From positions 1-39,042 of the IMG/VR virus record IMGVR_UViG_3300046673_000113: a stretch of 39,042 bases of DNA, one strand, 5' to 3'. This document shows positions 3,189-36,117 of this stretch, one piece after another. The DNA comes from a virus. Positions within the stretch are counted from its first letter, which is position 1. Each line of letters starts with the position of its first letter. The notes under the pieces are model-generated. The model had not been told where the DNA came from. It ran no database searches and was given only the letters and a program-made list of their open reading frames with translations. Made by a program: the position numbers and the translations under genes.

Positions 3189-3614
3189 ATGTTTAATAAG
3201 CTATACACGAAAATTCTGGATTCATCAATCTGGCTTGAACCGACACCGACGCGGATTGTTTGGATAACACTACTTGCAGCAATGGACATTGACGGCTATG
3301 CCCATTTTTCAGCCGTTGAGAACCTTGCGTTACGGGCAAGGGTGAGTCTGGCCGAGGCCGAGGAAGCGGTTCGAGTCTTTACCAGTCCAGATCCGTCGTC
3401 TGAAAATCCCGCTAATGATGGACGGCGAATTGAGCGCGTTCCGGGTGGCTTCCTGATCATCAATGCGAAGGAACACCGCGAGACAATGAACCGCGAAATG
3501 CAGCGCGAGCAAACCCGTCAGCGCGTAGAGCGTCACCGCGCTAATAAGAAGCTCGCTGGCTATCGTCCACGAATGAGCAAAACACTTGCCGAAAGGGTGG
3601 AGGAAAAACAATGA
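3189..3614 (+). CDS. Phage replication-organiser-like small protein
   Basis: 141 aa from ATG 3189, or 150 aa if ATG 3162 is used. The N-terminus MFNKLYTKILDSSIW followed by 'TRIVWITLLAAMDIDG' and 'FTSPDPSSENP..GRRIE' is a pattern found in a family of phage proteins of DnaD/replisome-organiser type, where a winged-helix domain decides whether to proceed on DNA. The second half (residues about 100-141) is basic and helical. I prefer 3189 because family members begin with MF.KL and because a promoter-like element ends just before it. It overlaps the HNH gene by ATGA. Its position between terminase and HNH genes is unusual for a replication gene, so the role is uncertain. Confidence 0.6.
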   Translation: MFNKLYTKILDSSIWLEPTPTRIVWITLLAAMDIDGYAHFSAVENLALRARVSLAEAEEAVRVFTSPDPSSENPANDGRRIERVPGGFLIINAKEHRETMNREMQREQTRQRVERHRANKKLAGYRPRMSKTLAERVEEKQ

Positions 3615-4021
3615 GCGATTACTCTGACAAACTCAAAGACCCGCGTTGGCAAAAGAAACGGCTGGCAGTTTTAGAACGTGCTGGCTGGAAGTGCCAAGTC
3701 TGCGACAATGACAAAGACACCTTGCACGTTCATCATCTGGCTTACAAAGGCGAACCGTGGGATGCGCCGGATGAATTGCTCGAATGTCTCTGCGAAAGCT
3801 GTCACAACTGGCGAGAAGATTTTAATACCTTTTGTGGCGCAAGGAGCGAAGCCCCGACAAAACTTTGTTATGCCTTCGTGAGATTTGCCTCTGTGATTTA
3901 TCCTAAACAAAAATCAAAAAAGACAAGCTGTTTTGCCCTATTCAGATTGTATTGGCATTACGTTGGCAAACCTGACGAAAAGGCAGACAATAAGTTTTTG
4001 GAAAAGGCAACCGCCGAATGA
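3611..4021 (+). CDS. HNH-type endonuclease
   Basis: 136 aa. The zinc and catalytic pattern is visible: CQVC at residues 28-31, then LHVHH (39-42), then DAPDELLECLCESCH with CESC at 61-64. This is the beta-beta-alpha HNH arrangement, with H41 or H42 as catalytic base candidates. HNH proteins encoded beside terminase genes often act with the packaging motor in cos phages; that role is inferred from position. Residues after about 75 have no recognised domain and may be a species-specific tail. It starts by ATGA overlap. Confidence 0.75.
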   Translation: MSDYSDKLKDPRWQKKRLAVLERAGWKCQVCDNDKDTLHVHHLAYKGEPWDAPDELLECLCESCHNWREDFNTFCGARSEAPTKLCYAFVRFASVIYPKQKSKKTSCFALFRLYWHYVGKPDEKADNKFLEKATAE

Positions 4022-4371: not shown

Positions 4372-6029
4372 GTAAAAAACTTCCAACATCAAAAGAAATC
4401 GTTGGCCGGAATTTGAATGCAGGCCAGCTTCCGTTTAGGCAGGTTGATACCGGCAACACCTACGGATTCAACAACACGCTGATTCAGGCTGCGGTTCAAA
4501 CGGATGAACGCAAAACGGTGACTCTGGTGGATTATGACATTCACCGCACAGTCAGCGTCATAGGTCGCCGGACACTTTTGAGTTTAGCGCGGACAATGTT
4601 TTGGAGAATTCCAGCTTTACAGGCTTCGATTTTGGAACAGGCAAATCTTGCGGCCAATCCTTTTACGCCGCGTTATGCTGGTAGGGATAAAGCATGGGGT
4701 GAGAAAGCGCATCTATGGCTTCACGATTGGCACAAGGTTTTTGATTTAGCAGGATGGCCTTACGATTACGAAACCTATGTGGAGCTTTTAATTGTGGCGG
4801 CGATAGTTGACGGTGATGTTTTCACGTTGCTGACGCAAGACGCAAGCGGCAATCCACGAATTCAAATCATCCCGTCGCATCGTGTCGGCAGCCGGTATCA
4901 GACAGGCGGCTCGGCAAGAGTTAAATACGATGGCAACCAGCTTTTCATTGACAACATTTTGGTGGATGGAAATCTGCCGTGGAGTTATTCGACTCCGATT
5001 GAATGGCTCGCGCCGATTATTGATGGCGTGATTGTGGATGGCCAAACCAAACCCATTGCCTATCGTGTTTATGACGACCCGGTTGTGTCGGCAAAATACA
5101 TGGACATTGGAGCGCGGAATATCTTTCCAACATTTATGCCAGTGTTCCCCGGCCAACTTCGCGGTATATCGCTTTTGGCGACCAGCGTATTCGACTGGCA
5201 GGATTTGAAGGAGTTCAAGGACTTTGAAAAGCTGGCACAAAAGGCGTTTTCAACCCGGACAATCGTTGAAGAAAATGAAACTGGCGATTTAGACCCGGCA
5301 AAATCGTTGGTGACTTCTCCATTTAGAAATCCAGACAACACGATAAAAACTCCAGCCACCACACAGGTCAATGGCGGGGCTTATACAATTTTCAAATCGC
5401 AGACCGGCTCAAAACTGACTGCGTTTGACTGGAATCGGCCAGCGCAAAATTCCCAAAACTTCATGGACACGGTTGTTCGTGATGCGTTTAGGGGCACGGA
5501 ATGGGACTCGTTTTTCTCGCTCGACCCGAAACACGTTGGCGGTGCGCCTATGCGCGTCATTGTGGACAAGATTTGCCGCGTGTTGAAGAAACGCCGCCGG
5601 ATGTTGGCAAAAACAACGTTGCGAGTGGACACTTACGGATTAGCTAAAGGAGCTTTGCGTGATGGTTCTCTGCCGATGGACAATGACTGGTATCGGTGGA
5701 CTTATCAAGGGCCGCCAGACCCGACAGCGGATAGGCGTTATGACGCGCAGACCGACCAGATGGAATATGAGCTTGGTTGGTCAACATTGGCCGATATTGA
5801 AACGCGCAGGAACGGGGACTGGATGTTAAAACGCGAACAGCGCGAGGTTGAGGTCAGGGATTTGTTCACACGCGCACAAAAGATAGCTGATGAATTTGGT
5901 GTTTCGATACAGGAAGCCTGCTCGCAGCTTTCGCTGATTGGTCAGGCAACATTCACACGGCGCGAACAGGAGATGGAAGGAACTCAACCGCAAGAGGACT
6001 CAAAAGGACTCGACCAAAACAAGCCATGA
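4368..6029 (+). CDS. Portal protein (lambda family)
   Basis: 553 aa, matching the size of lambda-type portal proteins that form the dodecameric ring at the capsid vertex. Recognisable family features include the segment of repeated helix turns after 'RRTLLSLARTMFWRIPALQA', the 'VDGDVFTLL' strand, and the 'DLKEFKDFEKLAQKAFSTR' stem-like helix near residues 282-302. The C-terminal tail (EGTQPQEDSKGLDQNKP) is polar and disordered-looking. It is followed by a protease gene with an ATGA overlap, which is the lambda B-C order. Confidence 0.88.
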   Translation: MSKKLPTSKEIVGRNLNAGQLPFRQVDTGNTYGFNNTLIQAAVQTDERKTVTLVDYDIHRTVSVIGRRTLLSLARTMFWRIPALQASILEQANLAANPFTPRYAGRDKAWGEKAHLWLHDWHKVFDLAGWPYDYETYVELLIVAAIVDGDVFTLLTQDASGNPRIQIIPSHRVGSRYQTGGSARVKYDGNQLFIDNILVDGNLPWSYSTPIEWLAPIIDGVIVDGQTKPIAYRVYDDPVVSAKYMDIGARNIFPTFMPVFPGQLRGISLLATSVFDWQDLKEFKDFEKLAQKAFSTRTIVEENETGDLDPAKSLVTSPFRNPDNTIKTPATTQVNGGAYTIFKSQTGSKLTAFDWNRPAQNSQNFMDTVVRDAFRGTEWDSFFSLDPKHVGGAPMRVIVDKICRVLKKRRRMLAKTTLRVDTYGLAKGALRDGSLPMDNDWYRWTYQGPPDPTADRRYDAQTDQMEYELGWSTLADIETRRNGDWMLKREQREVEVRDLFTRAQKIADEFGVSIQEACSQLSLIGQATFTRREQEMEGTQPQEDSKGLDQNKP

Positions 6030-6838
6030 AATCTTTTCCGAACATATTGAGCAAGTTGCTTTATGAGCCGTTGCTGATAACGCAAGCAAAGTATTTCGCC
6101 ATTTGCCGGGTATTGGAATCGCATATGGCCGGCGGCATGATGCCGCAGATTGAGCAGGATGAACCGGACGAGGACGAGGAATATCAGGAAACCAGCAACA
6201 CGGCGATTATTCCTGTTCATGGAGTTTTAGGAAAACATCTTGAACAGATGGACATGATGAGCGGCGGATGCGATTTGGACACCGTAAAAGACGACCTCGA
6301 CATTGCTTTGGCCGATGAAAACATTGAACGGATTGTTTTTGATTTTAGAAGTCCGGGCGGTGCGGTAACTGGCATACCGGAACTGGCCGCAAAAATTGCT
6401 TCAATTCAAGACAAGGAAACGATTGCGTTCACGGATTCGGAATGTTGCTCCGGCGCACTCTGGCTGGCGACAGCTTGTGATTATTTTTATTCCACGGAAT
6501 CGGCCAGTGTCGGGTCAATCGGGGTTTGGTGCGCTTACATGGACATTTCCCGGCAGATGGCGATGGAAGGCGAGAATATGCAGGCCATTAGCGCGGGCAA
6601 ATACAAACTCATGGGTGCGTATTGGAAGCCGTTGACGGACGAGGAAAAGGCATTACTGCAAAAGGATGTAGATAAGATTCATGCCGACTTCAAATCCGCC
6701 GTGAATTTGAACCGTGAAATTGCCGATGAACACATGCAAGGCCAGATTTTCGATGGCGAAGAAGCGGCGGAAATTGGACTCGTTGATGGAATCGTGGATG
6801 ACCTTGAGGAAGTGATTGAGATGGGTCTAAAAAACTGA
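6026..6838 (+). CDS. S49-family head maturation protease (lambda gpC-like)
   Basis: 270 aa with the SppA/ClpP fold signature. 'VFDFRSPGGAV' (104-114) forms the oxyanion-loop region. The nucleophile is S142 in ECCSGALWLA and the general base is K192 or K194 in SAGKYKLMG, with 'SVGSIGV' (161-167) between them. Such proteases cleave scaffold and portal in proheads. Unlike lambda gpC there is no scaffold domain fused at the C-terminus and no nested Nu3-like frame; a separate scaffold candidate lies at 7394. The acidic stretch at residues 43-54 is unusual. It overlaps the portal gene by ATGA. Confidence 0.88.
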   Translation: MKSFPNILSKLLYEPLLITQAKYFAICRVLESHMAGGMMPQIEQDEPDEDEEYQETSNTAIIPVHGVLGKHLEQMDMMSGGCDLDTVKDDLDIALADENIERIVFDFRSPGGAVTGIPELAAKIASIQDKETIAFTDSECCSGALWLATACDYFYSTESASVGSIGVWCAYMDISRQMAMEGENMQAISAGKYKLMGAYWKPLTDEEKALLQKDVDKIHADFKSAVNLNREIADEHMQGQIFDGEEAAEIGLVDGIVDDLEEVIEMGLKN

Positions 6839-6864
6839 CCAGCCAGAAATAAATCCGGCTGGTC
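6837..6864 (+). terminator. Stem-loop just after the protease gene
   Basis: GACCAGCC (6837-6844) pairs perfectly with GGCTGGTC (6857-6864) over a 12-nt A-rich loop. It begins inside the protease stop codon. No U-tract follows, so it may attenuate or protect RNA rather than terminate strictly. The stem core (CCAGCC) resembles the terminator at 9414-9445. Confidence 0.5.
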
Positions 6865-7393: not shown

Positions 7394-7927
7394 ATGGCAC
7401 TCAAAATCTTTCGCATTGGTGTAGCCAACGCTCGCATAAGCGAGCTTGAAGCCGAAAATCTCGAACTTACCAAGACCATTGAAGCCAATTCCGGCCCCAA
7501 AGTGAAGGGCGCGAAGGCTTGTCCTGAATGTAAAGGTGAAGGATTGGTTGAATGTGAAGCCTGCGATGGCACAGGCGAAGTGAATGAGGAAGCCAAATCC
7601 AAAGCCATCGCCAAGCAAACTGAACACACACAACTTTCCGCCGATTTAGTAACGGCGAAACAGACCATTGGCACTTTGGAAACCAAAATCAAAACTCTCG
7701 AATCTATGAATACTGACTTGACAGGAAAAGTTGCGGCTGCGGAATCAAAAGTTGACGCGACAGTGGCTGCAAAATTGGCACAGGCGACGGCAGCAATCGG
7801 CGCACCGGCGCAACCGGTTGTTCCGGCAACTGCTGCGACCCCACAAGCCTTGACTGGCATGGCGCGAGTCCGTGCAGCCGCGAAAGCTGACTTGGAAAAA
7901 GCGGGATACGTTGCAAAACGACAATAA
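7394..7927 (+). CDS. Scaffold-like coiled-coil protein with DnaJ-type zinc motif
   Basis: 177 aa immediately upstream of the major capsid gene, the normal place for a scaffold. Residues 11-31 and about 85-130 are heptad-like helices (ELEAENLELTKTIEA; TKIKTLESMNTDLTGKVAAA). Between them are two CxxCxGxG repeats: CPECKGEG and CEACDGTG (about residues 43-62), the zinc-knuckle unit of DnaJ chaperones. The C-terminus is Ala-rich then basic (ADLEKAGYVAKRQ), suitable for contact with capsid protein. A zinc-binding scaffold is unusual. The scaffold role is inferred from order; the motif is seen directly. Confidence 0.6.
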   Translation: MALKIFRIGVANARISELEAENLELTKTIEANSGPKVKGAKACPECKGEGLVECEACDGTGEVNEEAKSKAIAKQTEHTQLSADLVTAKQTIGTLETKIKTLESMNTDLTGKVAAAESKVDATVAAKLAQATAAIGAPAQPVVPATAATPQALTGMARVRAAAKADLEKAGYVAKRQ

Positions 7928-7961: not shown

Positions 7962-8957
7962 ATGGCTGACACCTTTTTAACGTTGCTGGACATGACGAAA
8001 ATGAACGGGACTGACCAAGCGGTTGGTATCGTTGAGGAAGTCCGAACCTTTGCGCCGGAAGTAAATGTTATTTCTGGCCGTCCCATCAAAGGCACGACCT
8101 ACAAAGCCCTTGTGCGAAGCGCACTGCCGGGCGGCCCCGCTTTCCGCGAAGTCAATACCGGCGCGGCTGTTGTGGCGAGCCGTTGGGATCAACGTATTAA
8201 CCAGACATTCTTCCTCGACGCGCAGATGCGTGTTGATGAAGCGGTACTGGATGCTTCTGAATTTGGCGCAGACTGGGTTTTGGGAAATGAAGCACTCGGC
8301 GTGGCCAAACAAAAACTCATCACGCTTGGCAATCAATTTTATTATGGCAATCCTTCATTGACTGACGCGGGTTTTGCCGGGTTGGTTTATCTGTATGATT
8401 ATACCAACATGGAAGTTGCCGCCAATGCGGTTGGAAGCTTGGCCTCGACGACTTCAAGCGCGTGGTTGGTGGTTAATCAGCCGGATTGCTGCGAATTCAT
8501 TTACGGCAATAATCAAGGCTTGATGCTCAAGCAATGGGTTCCGCAGTATATCACCGGCACGAACAGCCAATATCGGGCGTTTCTGAATAACCTATCGGGT
8601 TACGTCGGGTTGAGTTTCAACTACACGAAGTCAGTTTGCCGAATCAAAAACCTCGCTCCTCCGGGAACAGCCAGTGTCTTTTCACTGACTGACGGTTTGG
8701 TGGCGAAGGCTTTGGCTCAATTCCCCGTTGGGACTGTGCCGACTCATTTGTTCTGTAACCGCGCACAGCGTTATGCGCTGCAAACATCCCGTGCGCCAGT
8801 TTATACCGCTCCTTCCAGCGGACAGCAGAGCGCAATCACGGCGGCAACGGCGTTGCAATTCCCGTCCATGCCGGTTGAATCCAACGGGATTCCTCTCTAT
8901 GTAACGGATAGCATTACATCGGCTGAAGCTGCGACTGCGGCTGGAACGCCTTATTGA
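7962..8957 (+). CDS. Major capsid protein
   Basis: 331 aa. The order protease, scaffold, this gene, decoration protein identifies it, and the sequence fits a known phage capsid family: 'FREVNTG' in the N-terminal third, 'CCEFIYGNNQGLMLKQW', 'LNNLSGYVGLSF' and 'FPVGTVPTHLFCNRAQRYAL', with a late 'GIPLYVTDSI'. It would form the icosahedral shell in the HK97-like fold. No large cleaved N-terminal delta domain is present, consistent with a separate scaffold. The start lies in the context GAAAATTTATGG with no Shine-Dalgarno. Confidence 0.82.
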   Translation: MADTFLTLLDMTKMNGTDQAVGIVEEVRTFAPEVNVISGRPIKGTTYKALVRSALPGGPAFREVNTGAAVVASRWDQRINQTFFLDAQMRVDEAVLDASEFGADWVLGNEALGVAKQKLITLGNQFYYGNPSLTDAGFAGLVYLYDYTNMEVAANAVGSLASTTSSAWLVVNQPDCCEFIYGNNQGLMLKQWVPQYITGTNSQYRAFLNNLSGYVGLSFNYTKSVCRIKNLAPPGTASVFSLTDGLVAKALAQFPVGTVPTHLFCNRAQRYALQTSRAPVYTAPSSGQQSAITAATALQFPSMPVESNGIPLYVTDSITSAEAATAAGTPY

Positions 8958-27499: not shown

Positions 27500-28126
27500 T
27501 CAAACCGATTTTCGATGTGGCATATCTGCTTTGTTCGGCGTCATATCGTCGCCGCTCAGTAAATCGTATTCGACCTGGTTTCCGAACACCTCCCAGCCCG
27601 GTCGTTTCAGCCGAGAGAACATTTCGAGTTTTGGCACGTCTGGATACCACGCGGCGATCCAGTCGCGCACTTGGTCGGGCTTCGCGCTGTGCCGCCCACG
27701 CGGGCAGCGGATCACCGACGAGCGGCGCAGTTGCGGCGGCGGCGGCTTCACATTCCCGCGAACTCCAACCATCAGTGTTTCATGCTGGCCGATCCACCAG
27801 AAGCCGATGCCCGTCCGCATTTTGTCCCAGACCGCTTGCGACTTGTAGCTGAAGCCCCACGCCTTCATTACGCGCAGTCCGCTTTCGAGCAGTGGAGAGG
27901 TTGTCCACAGGTAGAGGATGCAGTCTTTCGCCGCCGGTATCTGCATCGCGCATAGCTCGTCATCGGTCATCAGCGGGTATTGTTTCGCCGCCGCGCCTTG
28001 CACGCCTTTTTGCTGATACGTCCAAGGCGGGTCTGCGTAGATCACACCAAAAGACGCCGAACCACCGGATGCAGCGAATGACGCCACGGCGGTCTGGTCG
28101 AGTTCGAGAGTCTTCATAGGCGTCAT
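27500..28126 (-). CDS. MT-A70-family adenine methyltransferase
   Basis: 208 aa. The catalytic DPPW motif occurs in FGVIYADPPWTYQ, followed by 'LYLWTTSPLLESGL', 'WGFSYKSQAVWDK' and 'HETLMVGVRG', and the typical ending RPGWEVFGNQ. These enzymes transfer a methyl group to N6 of adenine in DNA or RNA. The first 20-25 residues are encoded within an attC-like site (28056-28147), and the ATG itself lies in its right arm. By eye the gene is more GC-rich than its neighbours. It could protect phage DNA from restriction or modify regulation. Confidence 0.85.
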   Translation of the reverse strand: MTPMKTLELDQTAVASFAASGGSASFGVIYADPPWTYQQKGVQGAAAKQYPLMTDDELCAMQIPAAKDCILYLWTTSPLLESGLRVMKAWGFSYKSQAVWDKMRTGIGFWWIGQHETLMVGVRGNVKPPPPQLRRSSVIRCPRGRHSAKPDQVRDWIAAWYPDVPKLEMFSRLKRPGWEVFGNQVEYDLLSGDDMTPNKADMPHRKSV

Positions 28127-28147
28127 CGCTGATCCGGGACGTTAGCT
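28056..28147 (+). other. attC-like site 1
   Basis: Ends GCCGAAC (28056-28062) and GTTAGCT (28141-28147). Left arm CCGGAT-G-CAGCGA-A-TGACGCC (28065-28085) pairs with GGCGTCATCGCTGATCCGG (28119-28137) without mismatch except for the unpaired G71 and A78. These two bulges in the left arm, six bases apart, are characteristic of integron attC sites. The site overlaps the start of the MT-A70 gene and the stop of the next methyltransferase gene. Confidence 0.78.
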
Positions 28148-28999
28148 GCCTAGCGCGAGCGTCTCTTGGCTCATGCGCCTTGCAGCGGTTTCACAGAGTT
28201 TTTCGTCGAGTTCAATCATCGTGCATTTACGCCCGATGTCCTTTGCGGCTCGCGCCGTTGTTCCGCTCCCGCCGTGCGGGTCGAGTATTGCATCGCCCGG
28301 CCGCGTCCAGCCCGCCATTATTTTCAGCGGCAGATCGAGCGGGAAGATTGCAGTGTTTCCTTCGACTTCGCCGCTACCACCACGACCGAGCCGCCAGATG
28401 TCAGACATCGTGCCACGCTCGAAGTGACTCACCGCGAAAGCGCGGCCAGCGGTTTGCACGGCCTCGAAGCACATGATGAGTTCGTAGCCGCGATTGATGA
28501 CCGAGCCGTGCATGGCTGGCTGTCCGTCGCCCTTGTCCCAGATGATGATGTCCTTGAGATTCTTTCCCCACGCGCCGATGAGACTGAACCAGGCCTCTTT
28601 GCAGCCGGTAACGATTTGCACATTCCAGAAGGCCATCGGCGCACGTTGCAGCGCGAGCGTCAAGACTTCGTTTTGGAAGTCGTAGTAGTCTTGGACAGAC
28701 AGCGCATCGTGGTATCCAGCATATTTCTTTGAGAAGTGTTCGTCGGTTTCCCGTTCGGTGTATTGACCGTTGCGGATGCGCGTTCTCATGTTGTAGGGCG
28801 GCGAGGTTATCACCGCCGCGAAGCGTCCGAGCATCGGCATGATTTTACGATTGTCGCCGTGGTAGATCGTCACCCATTCGTCAGAGTAGTAGGGACGACC
28901 GGCACTTAACAAATCACTGGAAACAACCGCCCTTACGCCTTGTGATTCGGGCGTTGGTATCGTGTCGTCGCGTTCTGGTTTTTCAATGAGTGTTTGCAT
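28142..28999 (-). CDS. DNA adenine/cytosine-N4 methyltransferase (beta class)
   Basis: 285 aa. Motif order TSPPYN (residues about 66-71) before DPHGGSGTT (about 249-257) is that of beta-class N6-adenine or N4-cytosine methyltransferases; the His in place of the usual Phe/Cys is a variant. The C-terminus (CTMIELDEKLCETAARRM) closes the SAM-binding fold. Residues 1-about 33 are encoded by an attC-like site (28904-29032) and lie upstream of the recognisable domain (GRPYYSDEWVTIY). The stop codon is supplied by the GTTAGCT end of attC site 1. Likely to modify phage DNA; the target sequence is unknown. Confidence 0.85.
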   Translation of the reverse strand: MQTLIEKPERDDTIPTPESQGVRAVVSSDLLSAGRPYYSDEWVTIYHGDNRKIMPMLGRFAAVITSPPYNMRTRIRNGQYTERETDEHFSKKYAGYHDALSVQDYYDFQNEVLTLALQRAPMAFWNVQIVTGCKEAWFSLIGAWGKNLKDIIIWDKGDGQPAMHGSVINRGYELIMCFEAVQTAGRAFAVSHFERGTMSDIWRLGRGGSGEVEGNTAIFPLDLPLKIMAGWTRPGDAILDPHGGSGTTARAAKDIGRKCTMIELDEKLCETAARRMSQETLALGS

Positions 29000-29032
29000 T
29001 TTTACGGGCGGTGTTTCAGTTCTACGTTATGC
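28904..29032 (+). other. attC-like site 2
   Basis: Ends ACTTAAC (28904-28910) and GTTATGC (29026-29032). Left arm ACT-G-GAAACA-A-CCGCCC (28916-28932) pairs with GGGCGGTGTTTCAGT (29006-29020) without mismatch except the unpaired G and A, again six bases apart. The central loop encodes the start of the beta-class methyltransferase. It lies at the boundary between the methyltransferase genes and the small gene 29027-29116. Confidence 0.78.
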
Positions 29033-31305: not shown

Positions 31306-31425
31306 TCAGTTATCCTGTTTTTCCGGCATACTTGTTAATGGCGTTTCCTTGCCGCATTTCCAGCAAATACATTTGCCGTCGCCAATGTAAATGTTCTCAC
31401 ACTCACAGCCCCCCCCCCGTTTCAA
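31306..31425 (-). CDS. Small zinc-ribbon-like protein with poly-G start, 39 aa
   Basis: The TTG at 31425-31423 overlaps the upstream stop (TTGA). Codons 3-6 are G-rich because of a run of ten C on the + strand (31409-31418). The product contains CECENIYIGDGKCICWKCGK, a four- or five-Cys zinc motif. The frame depends on the exact run length, so a one-base change would disrupt it. This may be a real contingency site or an assembly-sensitive region. Confidence 0.4.
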   Translation of the reverse strand: MKRGGGCECENIYIGDGKCICWKCGKETPLTSMPEKQDN

Positions 31426-33404: not shown

Positions 33405-33494
33405 ACTTAACAAATCACTGCAAGAAACGCCTATTGGACGTTCTCCTTGCAGCCGGACGCCTTGCTTGCGGCGTTCTTGAGTTCACCGTTAGAC
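33405..33494 (+). other. attC-like site 3
   Basis: Ends ACTTAAC (33405-33411) and GTTAGAC (33488-33494). Left arm ACT-G-CAAGAA-A-CGCC (33417-33431) pairs with GGCGTTCTTGAGT (33470-33482). The unpaired G and A lie six bases apart, exactly as in sites 1 and 2. Confidence 0.78.
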
Positions 33495-33754
33495 GGACAA
33501 AAATAGTCGCCACCGGGTTTTCGTTTTGCCCCGCAAACTGGGCATCTAGTCCAGTCATTTGGAATTTGAAACTTGAACGTCTTTCCATTGCCGACCGGAA
33601 TTGTCATGCAGAACCGCTTGATAGTTTCGCCGACCGCGACATAATCACACCGACGAATATGTTCACATGGTAGCGTCCGTCTAACCACCGCATGAAGCGA
33701 ACCCTGATTACGCCGTGGGTTTGCCGCTTCGGATTTTTTCTTTTTGGATGTCAT
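33431..33754 (-). CDS. Small zinc-ribbon protein spanning two attC-like sites
   Basis: 107 aa. The start ATG (33754) is inside the loop of attC site 4, and the 3' part reads through attC site 3, so about one third of the protein derives from attC sequence. The core (CEHIRRCDYVAVGETIKRFC; FQIPNDWTRCPVCGAKRKPG) has a Cys pattern consistent with a zinc ribbon. It is the sole gene of a 291-bp unit between the GTTRRRY ends of sites 3 and 4. No family recognised; a real start within the site is inferred. Confidence 0.45.
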   Translation of the reverse strand: MTSKKKKSEAANPRRNQGSLHAVVRRTLPCEHIRRCDYVAVGETIKRFCMTIPVGNGKTFKFQIPNDWTRCPVCGAKRKPGGDYFCPSNGELKNAASKASGCKENVQ

Positions 33755-33785
33755 AGGTCAGGGTTCGCTTATGCGGACGTTAGGC
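33679..33785 (+). other. attC-like site 4
   Basis: Ends GTCTAAC (33679-33685) and GTTAGGC (33779-33785). Left arm CCGCAT-G-AAGCGAACCCTGA (33688-33707) pairs with TCAGGGTTCGCTTATGCGG (33758-33776). Only the G bulge is present; the A bulge is missing. R ends match the RYYYAAC and GTTRRRY consensus closely. Confidence 0.75.
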
Positions 33786-33789
33786 GAAA

Positions 33790-33924
33790 TCATCGTGATT
33801 TACCCTTTTTCATTTCAACGCGGCGATTTTGTCGGCGATATAGTTGCGCGTATTCACTTTTTCCACCGGCTATTTGCTCGTGGAGTTTCGCCAGACTTTC
33901 TTTTTTCTGTTGTCGTTTTGTCAT
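33790..33924 (-). CDS. Small basic protein between attC sites 4 and 5, 44 aa
   Basis: A short frame (TKRQQKKESLAKLHEQIAGG, then KSEYAQLYRRQNRRVEMKKG) fills the 251-bp unit between two attC-like sites. It is highly basic and helical. The stop is 5 nt beyond the GTTAGGC end of site 4. Unknown function; nucleic-acid binding is plausible. Support comes from its position as the only gene in the unit. Confidence 0.4.
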   Translation of the reverse strand: MTKRQQKKESLAKLHEQIAGGKSEYAQLYRRQNRRVEMKKGKSR

Positions 33925-33937
33925 ATCAAATCATTTC

Positions 33938-34036
33938 GCCTAACAAGTCGCCGGAGCCAACCGCCGTTGGCGCTGTCCGTTCCGCTTTCGCGGTTCACGT
34001 CGCGAGTCGGCGGTGGCTCAGCTTTCATCGTTAGCT
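33938..34036 (+). other. attC-like site 5 (SPEPTAVGA type)
   Basis: Ends GCCTAAC (33938-33944) and GTTAGCT (34030-34036). Left arm G-GAGCCA-A-CCGCCG (33953-33966) pairs with CGGCGGTGGCTC (34008-34019). The + strand translation of the left end reads NKSPEPTAVGAV, a tail I recall from hypothetical proteins of Verrucomicrobiota, which suggests this site belongs to a family interspersed in such genomes. Confidence 0.78.
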
Positions 34037-34396
34037 GCTTACTCGCTTGCGCCACGCATCCATTTCTTCGTGCGCGAATCGGACGCAGTTTTGGCCCATG
34101 ACCATCGCGGCGACTGATGGCCGGATGGCGTTGATGTCGTTGTGGGCGCGGTCGAGAGCATCGCGGAAGTATTTCGCCACCGTGCGCCACTCCTTTACCG
34201 TTCCGCTTTTGATGCCTTCGGACAGGTCGTTGGATAGTTGCAAGATTCGTTCTTCGGACGACGCAGCTAACAACGCGCTGCTGCGAACCTTCGGTTCGCC
34301 CGCAGCTTTGCGTCTGGGTTTCTTGGATGCTGGTTTTGCTTTCATAGTTTGGTTTGAGTTTGACCAGGTCGCAGAGCTTGATTCGTTAGGCATCAT
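34031..34396 (-). CDS. Hypothetical basic protein in attC-bounded unit, 121 aa
   Basis: ATG 34396 overlaps the preceding stop (ATGA), and the stop TAA is supplied by the GTTAGCT end of attC site 5. The N-terminal region is basic and disordered (ASKKPRRKAAGEPKVRSSAL), encoded by attC site 6, and the rest is a helical domain (EERILQLSNDLSEGIKSGTV; YFRDALDRAHNDINAIRPSV). An alternative start at 34345 would skip the site. No family recognised. Confidence 0.5.
   Translation of the reverse strand: MMPNESSSATWSNSNQTMKAKPASKKPRRKAAGEPKVRSSALLAASSEERILQLSNDLSEGIKSGTVKEWRTVAKYFRDALDRAHNDINAIRPSVAAMVMGQNCVRFAHEEMDAWRKRVSS
34265..34391 (+). other. attC-like site 6
   Basis: Ends AGCTAAC (34265-34271) and GTTAGGC (34385-34391). 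Left arm GCT-G-CTGCGA-A-CC (34277-34289) pairs with GGTCGCAGAGC (34067+300 = 34367-34377). The unpaired G and A lie six bases apart. The long loop encodes the N-terminal region of the protein at 34031-34396. Confidence 0.75.
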
Positions 34397-34623
34397 TTGC
34401 GTTGAAACTCTGAATGACATTGAAGTGTTGCTCCACTTTCCACGACCTTGCCCTCAACGTGGATGACCTCTGCGAGTAAGTAACGCCCAACGCGCTTCTT
34501 TACACCGAGTTCAGCAATGTCTTTAACGTCGCTTGGTTTGACTGCATGGTAGTATGAATCTTCTGTTCCCTCGTTTTCGTGGGACAGATATATTTCGTTT
34601 GGATATGTTCGTGGTCTGCTCAT
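34393..34623 (-). CDS. Hypothetical protein in attC-bounded unit, 76 aa
   Basis: ATG 34623 lies 7 nt from the GTCTAAC end of attC site 7, and the stop overlaps the next start by ATGA. The protein (SRPRTYPNEIYLSHENEGTE, then DSYYHAVKPSDVKDIAELGV) looks compact, with a strand ending ERVVEG-like near KVVESGATLQC. A longer GTG-started form from 34680 would translate attC sequence. Unknown. Confidence 0.5.
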   Translation of the reverse strand: MSRPRTYPNEIYLSHENEGTEDSYYHAVKPSDVKDIAELGVKKRVGRYLLAEVIHVEGKVVESGATLQCHSEFQRK

Positions 34624-34629
34624 AATGAT

Positions 34630-34756
34630 GTCTAACAATTCGCCGAAACCAACAGCGAGTGTTCCTGCTGGTTGCGGCACTGGGTTTTAATTTTCTGGTT
34701 CATTTACTTTACGAGCCTTCGCCCCACTCGCTGTGGCTTGGCTCAAATCGTTCGGT
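34630..34756 (+). other. attC-like site 7
   Basis: Ends GTCTAAC (34630-34636) and GTTCGGT (34750-34756, a weak R end). Left arm GCC-G-AAACCA-A-CAGCGAGT (34642-34660) pairs with ACTCGCTGTGGCTTGGC (34726-34742) with one mismatch. The left end GTCTAACAATTCG is the same as I recall from the attC of the aadA1 cassette. Confidence 0.72.
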
Positions 34757-35040: not shown

Positions 35041-35340
35041 TTATACGATTTCTCCATCATATCGGCGGTGGATTAACCGTATTTCACACGCGCCATGCTT
35101 TTGGACGTGTTCCAAATACATCCGGCAGATTTCTTCGAGTATGCGCCGCCCCCATTTCGCCTCCTTTGATTCATCGGACGGGATTGGTGCATGATGAAGG
35201 ACTGCCACCATTTGTTTTGTTTCAAGCGTGATGTAGAGGACTCGTTCATCATCGTTCCAATGAGTTGTAGGTGCAAACGTGCCCAACAAATCACTAGAGG
35301 GAATGGCGTCTACCCCCTCGGTTTTGGAGTCAGTTTTCAT
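35041..35340 (-). CDS. Hypothetical protein, 99 aa
   Basis: The stop TAA lies in the CGTTATAC element. The N-terminal region contains IPSSDLLGTFAPT, like the attC-encoded start of the methyltransferase (VVSSDLLSAG), near a half-site GCCCAAC (35281-35287). The body (LYITLETKQMVAVLHHAPIP, then ILEEICRMYLEHVQKHGACE) is mixed alpha/beta. It overlaps the upstream gene by ATGA. Unknown function. Confidence 0.5.
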   Translation of the reverse strand: MKTDSKTEGVDAIPSSDLLGTFAPTTHWNDDERVLYITLETKQMVAVLHHAPIPSDESKEAKWGRRILEEICRMYLEHVQKHGACEIRLIHRRYDGEIV

Positions 35341-35873
35341 TTCGATATTTCCTTTGGTTTTCTCAATACAAATTCCACCTCGTCAAACATATTCCATAGA
35401 AACCATTTGAGAATGTGGCGTATAAAAATTGGAATCAGGTTGCGAGTTTTATTTTTCCAACGATAGGATGATGACGTCAGCCGCACAGAAATCTTCTCGA
35501 ACTTCGCCCCCTCAAAGCTTGGATACGCCTCCTGACTGCAAACATAATCAAACGACTTTTCCGTGTAGAACGATTTGTGTTCGATTGACAGGAACGCTCC
35601 GTCAGACTTTGCGTAAGGCACGCACCCGCGAAAGATTCCGCCGGGCTTCAATATGCGATGAACCTCGTTCAAATTCTCACAGGTATCCCGCAAATGCTCC
35701 AGGCTGCCGTCCATGCGAATCTCGTCCGCGCTGTTGTCCGGGAACGGCCATGGCCTGACAGAGAGGTCGGCAACCATGTCTGGATTGATTTGTTTGCTGA
35801 AATCAACATTCAGATAACCCGGCAATTTGACGTGGCCGCATCCGAGATTAAGATTGATAGAAGTTTTGCTCAT
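35337..35873 (-). CDS. Class I SAM-dependent methyltransferase-like protein
   Basis: 178 aa from ATG 35873. The motif I glycine loop is INLNLGCGHVKLPGYLNVDF, followed by 'DGSLEHLRDTCENLNEV' and 'HRILKPGGIFRGCVPY', a Methyltransf_11-like arrangement. No DNA-methyltransferase catalytic motif is present, so the substrate is more likely protein, lipid, sugar or small molecule. A five-residue longer start at 35888 exists. It is ATGA-coupled downstream. Confidence 0.68.
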   Translation of the reverse strand: MSKTSINLNLGCGHVKLPGYLNVDFSKQINPDMVADLSVRPWPFPDNSADEIRMDGSLEHLRDTCENLNEVHRILKPGGIFRGCVPYAKSDGAFLSIEHKSFYTEKSFDYVCSQEAYPSFEGAKFEKISVRLTSSSYRWKNKTRNLIPIFIRHILKWFLWNMFDEVEFVLRKPKEISK

Positions 35874-35874
35874 A

Positions 35875-36117
35875 TCATTTCGGAGCACCCATTACTTTCT
35901 CCGCCTCCTCCAACCCTTTCTTCAACCTCTCGTTTTCCTCAATCAGGGGTGTGGCGGCTTCGCGAAGGGCTTGGAGTATCATTTTTCTCATTAAAGTTTG
36001 CACAAATAGTTTTGGGTCGTGAGCGTTAGCACCAATTTGAGCGGTCACCGTATCAACAAATGACTCGGAAAAATTCTTCGCTATCCTCTCCAACTCCGGT
36101 GTTTTGTCAGTGGTCAT
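35875..36117 (-). CDS. Small helical protein, 80 aa
   Basis: A Shine-Dalgarno AGGA lies 5 nt before ATG 36117. The product is helical and acidic-to-basic (ERIAKNFSESFVDTVTAQIG, then MRKMILQALREAATPLIEEN and a heptad end ERLKKGLEEAEKVM). A coiled-coil dimer is likely. Unknown function. Confidence 0.55.
   Translation of the reverse strand: MTTDKTPELERIAKNFSESFVDTVTAQIGANAHDPKLFVQTLMRKMILQALREAATPLIEENERLKKGLEEAEKVMGAPK

Follow-up and report, generated by a model that had tools for sequence, protein, structure and literature searches.

Evidence for inverted integron cassettes with predicted gene starts inside attC hairpins in phage early operons

Integrons are known as bacterial gene-capture systems, and the phage cases so far look, to our knowledge, like borrowed bacterial pieces. 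The IMG/VR virus record IMGVR_UViG_3300046673_000113, analysed here over its whole length of 39,042 nt (39 kb) and referred to as the window, has its early genes on the - strand; genes for terminase, portal, protease and capsid occupy the + strand. A first-pass annotation had placed five attC-like sites of 90-127 nt among the early genes, at 33405-34756, and all five were recovered at these positions. The locus raises the question of whether a phage can hold a genuine cassette array, and whether such an array is a bacterial fragment or part of a system that phages run themselves.

Scanning the window for the attC plan yielded seven sites, with the arm bearing the extra bases on the left of the + strand in 7/7. 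The main array comprises, all on the + strand and with extrahelical bases in square brackets, site 3 (33405-33494, 90 nt; ACTTAAC..ACT[G]CAAGAA[A]..GTTAGAC), site 4 (33679-33785, 107 nt; GTCTAAC..CAT[G]AAGCG..GTTAGGC), site 5 (33938-34036, 99 nt; GCCTAAC..GCC[G]GAGCC[A]..GTTAGCT), site 6 (34265-34391, 127 nt; AGCTAAC..GCT[G]CTGCGA[A]..GTTAGGC) and site 7 (34630-34756, 127 nt; GTCTAAC..GCC[G]AAACCA[A]..GTTCGGT). Their common plan reads R'' (7 nt), 5 nt, L'' (3 nt), an extra base, 5-6 pairs, in most cases an extra A, further pairs, the loop, the returning arms, 5-7 nt and R' (7 nt). As first described, the extra G is present in 5/5 of these sites and is followed six bases later by an unpaired A in all but site 4, which has no second extra base. 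The R-type ends ascribed to them were borne out in their strict form (RYYYAAC/GTTRRRY) for 7/10 R boxes, the other three being off by one base (GTTAGCT in site 5, AGCTAAC in site 6, GTTCGGT in site 7). Two further sites of the same kind, site 1 (28056-28147, +; GCCGAAC..GAT[G]CAGCG[A]..GTTAGCT) and site 2 (28904-29032, +; ACTTAAC..ACT[G]GAAAC[A]..GTTATGC), flank a DNA-methyltransferase gene.

A covariance model trained solely on bacterial attC (n = 28, loops trimmed) matched 3/7 window sites at E ≤ 1, all on the + strand: site 4 from 33679 (29.5 bits, E 7.9e-6), site 3 from 33405 (20.7 bits, E 0.0018) and site 1 from 28056 (20.1 bits, E 0.0027); sites 2, 5, 6 and 7 were not detected at this threshold. 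Relatives were gathered with a degenerate attC pattern, which returned 22 further virus loci and biases base counts, because it selects sites with an extra G. In the relatives the bacterial model reached 40.8 bits (E 6e-8), and it matched 13/19 records of the phage set, the matches falling on the non-coding strand of the genes. Among 20 dinucleotide-shuffled copies of the window, the scanner gave one match in total at a score of at least 19, against six of the seven sites in the real window. Among 24 sites of the phage attC family, compensatory changes affected 14/15 inner-helix pairs, and 89.9% of cells were paired, compared with 68.2% in shuffles and 27-37% after sliding. The same scanner recovered five attC of this plan in a class 1 integron, including that of cmlA1 with an extra G, and found no such site in PH101 (first 50 kb) or MW202573 (first 30 kb). 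Single-strand folding with DNA parameters, which the annotation had proposed along with a covariance search, gave a strong score for site 4 (z -5.16) and modest ones elsewhere, three sites being weak (-0.86 to -1.78). Scans of the window for Rfam families and for tRNAs returned no match. The earlier argument that the arms vary while the architecture stays constant is upheld, since the arm sequences covary and the attC plan is kept; by structural criteria, these hairpins qualify as genuine attC of the integron type.

Because the cassette that follows an attC in an integron array completes the R box of that attC, complementary ends are expected across a cassette and not within one site. The R boxes at the two ends of a unit were exactly complementary in 38/58 phage units and in 46/64 units of bacterial arrays. 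For the first set of adjacent phage units, 13/18 were perfect against 2.7 expected from partner shuffling, with 0/100000 shuffles reaching this value, while perfect complementarity within a single site was found in just 5/29 sites of that first phage set. Together with the covariance model, this pattern supports the cassette interpretation.

Between sites 3 and 7, the R'-to-R' distances of 291, 251, 355 and 365 bp agree with the 251-365 bp originally given, and 3/4 units have perfect ends. All four units are read on the - strand, with predicted gene starts. The first (33489-33779, 291 bp; ends 7/7) is associated with a Cys-rich gene of 107 aa (33431-33754) that starts in the loop of site 4 and stops in the loop of site 3. 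The second (33780-34030, 251 bp; ends 7/7) has a gene of 44 aa at about 33790-33924, with its ATG directly past the R box, and the third (34031-34385, 355 bp; ends 7/7) a gene of 104 aa (34031-34345) running from the loop of site 6 to a stop at the R box of site 5. In the fourth (34386-34750, 365 bp), whose ends match at 3/4 variable positions, a 76-aa gene (34393-34623; GTTAGACATCATTATG) starts past the R box of site 7 and ends with a TAA in that of site 6. A larger unit of 885 bp (28142-29026, -) carries an N6_N4 methyltransferase gene (28142-28999) that starts in the loop of site 2 and stops with a TAA in the R box of site 1; its ends are not complementary, so that 2/5 adjacent window units lack fully complementary ends. 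Next to it, an MT-A70 adenine methyltransferase gene (27500-28126, -; 208 aa) starts inside site 1. The two methyltransferase genes adjoin over 27500-28999, both with a predicted start inside an attC, and possibly protect against host restriction.

The genes near the window arrays all lie on the - strand, whereas the attC top strand is the + strand. This polarity recurred across 18 phage arrays, where 28 units had their gene antisense to the attC top strand and 4 along it, 26 of the 58 units being ambiguous by ORF length. The 23 bacterial control arrays gave 2 antisense and 56 along (Fisher p 9e-17), in a control drawn from class 1 integrons, Pseudomonadota and the phylum to which one further MAG belongs (G028, titled Chloroflexi). 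The canonical layout, with the gene along the attC top strand and attC at its 3' end, is therefore not that of the phage set (4:28 versus 56:2); integrons of Verrucomicrobiota or Planctomycetota, outside this control, might have the same inverted format. Three of the four units scored along attC belong to one record (G017), for which an inverted layout is favoured by domain matches, by ATGA chains and by the low complexity of the antisense ORFs. Wherever a cassette gene had a recognisable domain, it lay antisense; these genes included N6_N4 and MT-A70 methyltransferases, DNA polymerase beta, DUF1937, ATP-grasp, radical SAM and sigma-70/AP2 proteins. A 32.4-kb record (G014; loci L140 and L141) carries 14 sites in 32 kb, in two attC arrays at opposite ends and on opposite strands, each antisense to its local genes.

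With this polarity, attC lies at the 5' end of the gene, and the hairpin itself often contains the predicted start. In 41/79 sites an ORF opens from an ATG in the hairpin interior and extends at least 30 codons beyond the site; window sites 1, 2, 4 and 6 have such predicted starts within the hairpin. The motif ATGAA occurs in 26/79 loops in the gene sense and in 0/79 in antisense (p 2.5e-9). For 34/41 loop starts the upstream ORF terminates in the same site, 12 of them with a 4-nt ATGA overlap. Peptides encoded by attC (GWLRRL, VGSGDLL, LAPATC and, C-terminally, PNVES and PNESSS) recur terminally in open frames that are unrelated to each other. Comparing unit ORFs across records at the protein level did not separate the strands and is uninformative in this respect, because attC translate on both strands. 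One phage locus (L002) carries an identical attC twice, at 3563-3654 and 5007-5098, with different genes on both sides; the duplication leaves two predicted proteins with a common N-terminus, MKNTEDAIGGSLHRAGS.

Exchange between phages followed the same unit boundaries. Two different phages (G017 and G014) share an attC at 97.7% identity, the gene after it (641 nt) at 98.9% and the next attC at 91.8%, while identity falls to 50.6% beyond and to 6/25 positions upstream (p 1.7e-4); on this alignment, the cassette common to both is attC plus the gene downstream of it. In a second pair (G002 and L104), identity begins at the upstream R box of the shared attC and extends about 70 nt past the site. 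The same unit was found in different arrays for these two pairs and for none of the window's own units. Over all similar attC pairs, the flanks showed a weak asymmetry (6 versus 4 pairs), the informative cases being the two shared cassettes. Several other phage records contain, amid unrelated flanks, sites 91-95% identical to site 5 of the window, and two other phages contain sites 78-83% identical to site 7. A close relative of the window (TerL 84% identical) lacks this array and has one attC elsewhere. A search for relatives through the window methyltransferase at 35337-35888 and a megablast of the structural half of the window against sequenced phages both returned none. In another locus (L003), a 31-base contig-end stretch (7408-7438) recurs near the start (418-448), and two attC 83% alike lie near both ends, possibly reflecting a circular or repeated assembly path.

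No PF00589 match and no tyrosine recombinase was found in the 39-kb window record, which as it stands has no detected intI gene and is not a complete integron; likewise, no tyrosine recombinase was found in G001, G002 and most array-bearing records. The array of the window may thus be stranded, and since the record may be incomplete, an integrase outside it is also possible. Three records with the same attC family (G010, G012 and G020), all of which carry terminase, portal or head genes, encode integron integrases beside the array and inside the phage operon. These proteins match TIGR02249 at E 1e-68 to 1e-80, yet 1-42 bits below its curated cut-off of 265, and contain the integron-specific patch LPGxLAxKY. 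They form one clade (100/100), separate from 58 other integrases of the groups sampled, and the nearest solved structure to that of G020 is VchIntIA (2a3v, E 5e-41). The 5' end of intI faces the array in 3/3 records, and the cassette genes run towards intI on the same strand. The sequence CTAACAGTTAATT precedes intI in both G020 and G010 and is attI-like by resemblance only. As far as gene content and motifs can tell, the three records have the layout of complete integrons, with a patch-bearing intI beside a putative attI and attC. In G020 (L124), a 34-bp contig-end repeat (6807-6840 and 8587-8620) fuses the beginning of cassette 1 to attC 3, with the junction at G|TTAGAC, which suggests that the sample contained a tandem array or an excised circle. 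A further array-bearing phage (G006) encodes, at 28312-28749, a tyrosine recombinase of a non-integron type (PF00589, 41 bits).

Several explanations can be set against one another on these data. A palindromic repeat (MITE or REP-like) or an RNA hairpin such as a terminator or processing site, with no link to integrons, would account for similar hairpins recurring amid unrelated flanks; this is scarcely credible, because the arms covary around a constant plan specific to attC (R boxes, 5-nt spacer, three pairs, extra base, 5-6 pairs, extra A), complementarity holds between sites and not within one, the bacterial attC model matches, no Rfam family does, and IntI genes stand beside arrays in relatives. 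Neither a target-site duplication nor a transposase for a hairpin element was seen. It is also improbable that the units are ordinary cassettes picked up from an integron of a bacterial host, each with its gene followed at the 3' end by attC, as in the phage arrays of Qi et al. (2023). Some units look canonical in the gene sense, with a TAA stop in the upstream R box and an ATG soon past the next (34393-34623), and phage arrays of canonical polarity are known (TJE1). This origin is disfavoured by the extrahelical bases and model matches, which, for the window as for its relatives, lie on the opposite strand, bacterial arrays going the other way; by the shared cassette of G017 and G014, which stops before and not after the downstream attC; and by the start codons, which would fall in another cassette in about half of the cases.

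A stranded fossil array, made of real attC cassettes left by one past integrase event, now immobile and retained for their genes alone, is conceivable, although we consider it rather unlikely. The missing integrase, the R boxes off consensus and the non-complementary ends of the unit at 28142-29026 would fit such a remnant, but the perfect ends of three adjacent window cassettes, their intact arms and extra bases, and the absence of the array from a close relative point to recent turnover. The window most probably holds an array, with no integrase detected, from a lineage of phage integrons in which inverted cassettes bear the start codon.

The first-pass annotation knew of no clear report of a cassette array inside such a phage. 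Attribution of novelty has to be narrowed here, as integrase-less attC arrays (CALINs) have been published in phages, for example Tetrasphaera phage TJE1, by a study in which 5/6 phage attC assayed worked with IntI1 and some temperate phages had integron integrases (Qi et al., 2023; PMC9892861); phage attC arrays as such are thus not new. Those CALINs likewise lack an integrase and hold methyltransferase genes in cassettes, but the TJE1 attC have normal polarity and genes that stop in attC, whereas the present phages have inverted cassettes, predicted hairpin starts and an integrase clade of their own within phage operons. Class 1 and chromosomal bacterial integrons share with them the patch-bearing IntI, the attI-like site, the attC plan and the rate of end complementarity; their genes, however, share the direction of the attC top strand, point away from intI and have attC at the 3' end, while here they run towards intI with a partly coding attC at the 5' end. 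Treponema reverse integrons, in which intI is transcribed toward attI with the cassettes after it, also have integrase and cassette genes transcribed the same way (PMC3607928); there intI is turned round, whereas in the three phage records with intI its transcription leads away from attI in the usual manner and it is the cassettes that are inverted. Bouvier et al. (2009; PMC2727003) reported that the choice of recombining strand depends on the extrahelical bases, that their inversion switches recombination to the opposite strand and shifts the crossover to the R'' box, and that swapping the first extra base has a minor effect only. Relative to the gene, the phage sites similarly have their extra bases on the other arm, with the other strand and the R'' box predicted; Bouvier's sites were engineered VCR mutants, while those described here are natural and occur in many phages. 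What is new is the attC polarity antisense to the genes, the position of attC at the gene's 5' end with predicted start codons in the hairpin, the sharing of an attC plus its downstream gene between phages and the presence of one clade of integron integrases next to arrays of this family; the first-pass annotation mentioned neither the polarity, nor the hairpin starts, nor the integrase of relatives. No report of inverted cassettes with starts in attC was found in the literature searched, which excluded preprints and most subscription journals.

On this basis, the attC sites probably delimit gene cassettes in the phage early operon. The extrahelical bases would set the strand on which IntI acts and put the crossover in the R box that precedes each gene (AA|C in the gene sense), so that one cassette would consist of an attC followed by its gene. 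The attC loop would be free in sequence, because IntI does not read it, and could hold an A-rich translation start together with the cassette gene's ATG, which in many cases overlaps the preceding stop (ATGA) and would allow translational coupling, while the attC arms would be translated as variable N- and C-terminal tails. A cassette would thereby bring its own start and could be expressed upon insertion into a co-directional phage operon. In the relatives, the predicted IntI gene adjoins the array: it follows the cassettes in the same orientation and is preceded by an attI-like site. Since some related viruses carry the expected enzyme, these phages seem to have a gene-swapping system of their own; the array of the window and those of its closest relatives would rely on IntI from a co-infecting phage or host, or from an uncovered part of the genome. 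We lean slightly towards several phage lineages running their own integrons, with a distinct integrase clade and inverted, largely coding cassettes whose hairpin gives the start and the terminal peptides, these cassettes circulating between unrelated phages and allowing fast exchange of host-takeover and counter-defence genes. The benefit may lie in the turnover of methyltransferase and other small host-interaction genes.

If so, the cassette has been rebuilt for phage operons, with a recombination hairpin that doubles as a translation start, and the arrays illustrate how small early phage genes could be turned over rapidly through site-specific shuffling. Integron layouts would be more varied than is now known; arrays of this kind would be misread by searches and annotations built on the usual gene direction, and the sites offer a natural test case for strand choice by extrahelical bases. 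Elsewhere among the early genes of the window, a run of about ten C on the + strand (31410-31420) lies between two genes and may be an assembly artefact or a slippage site.
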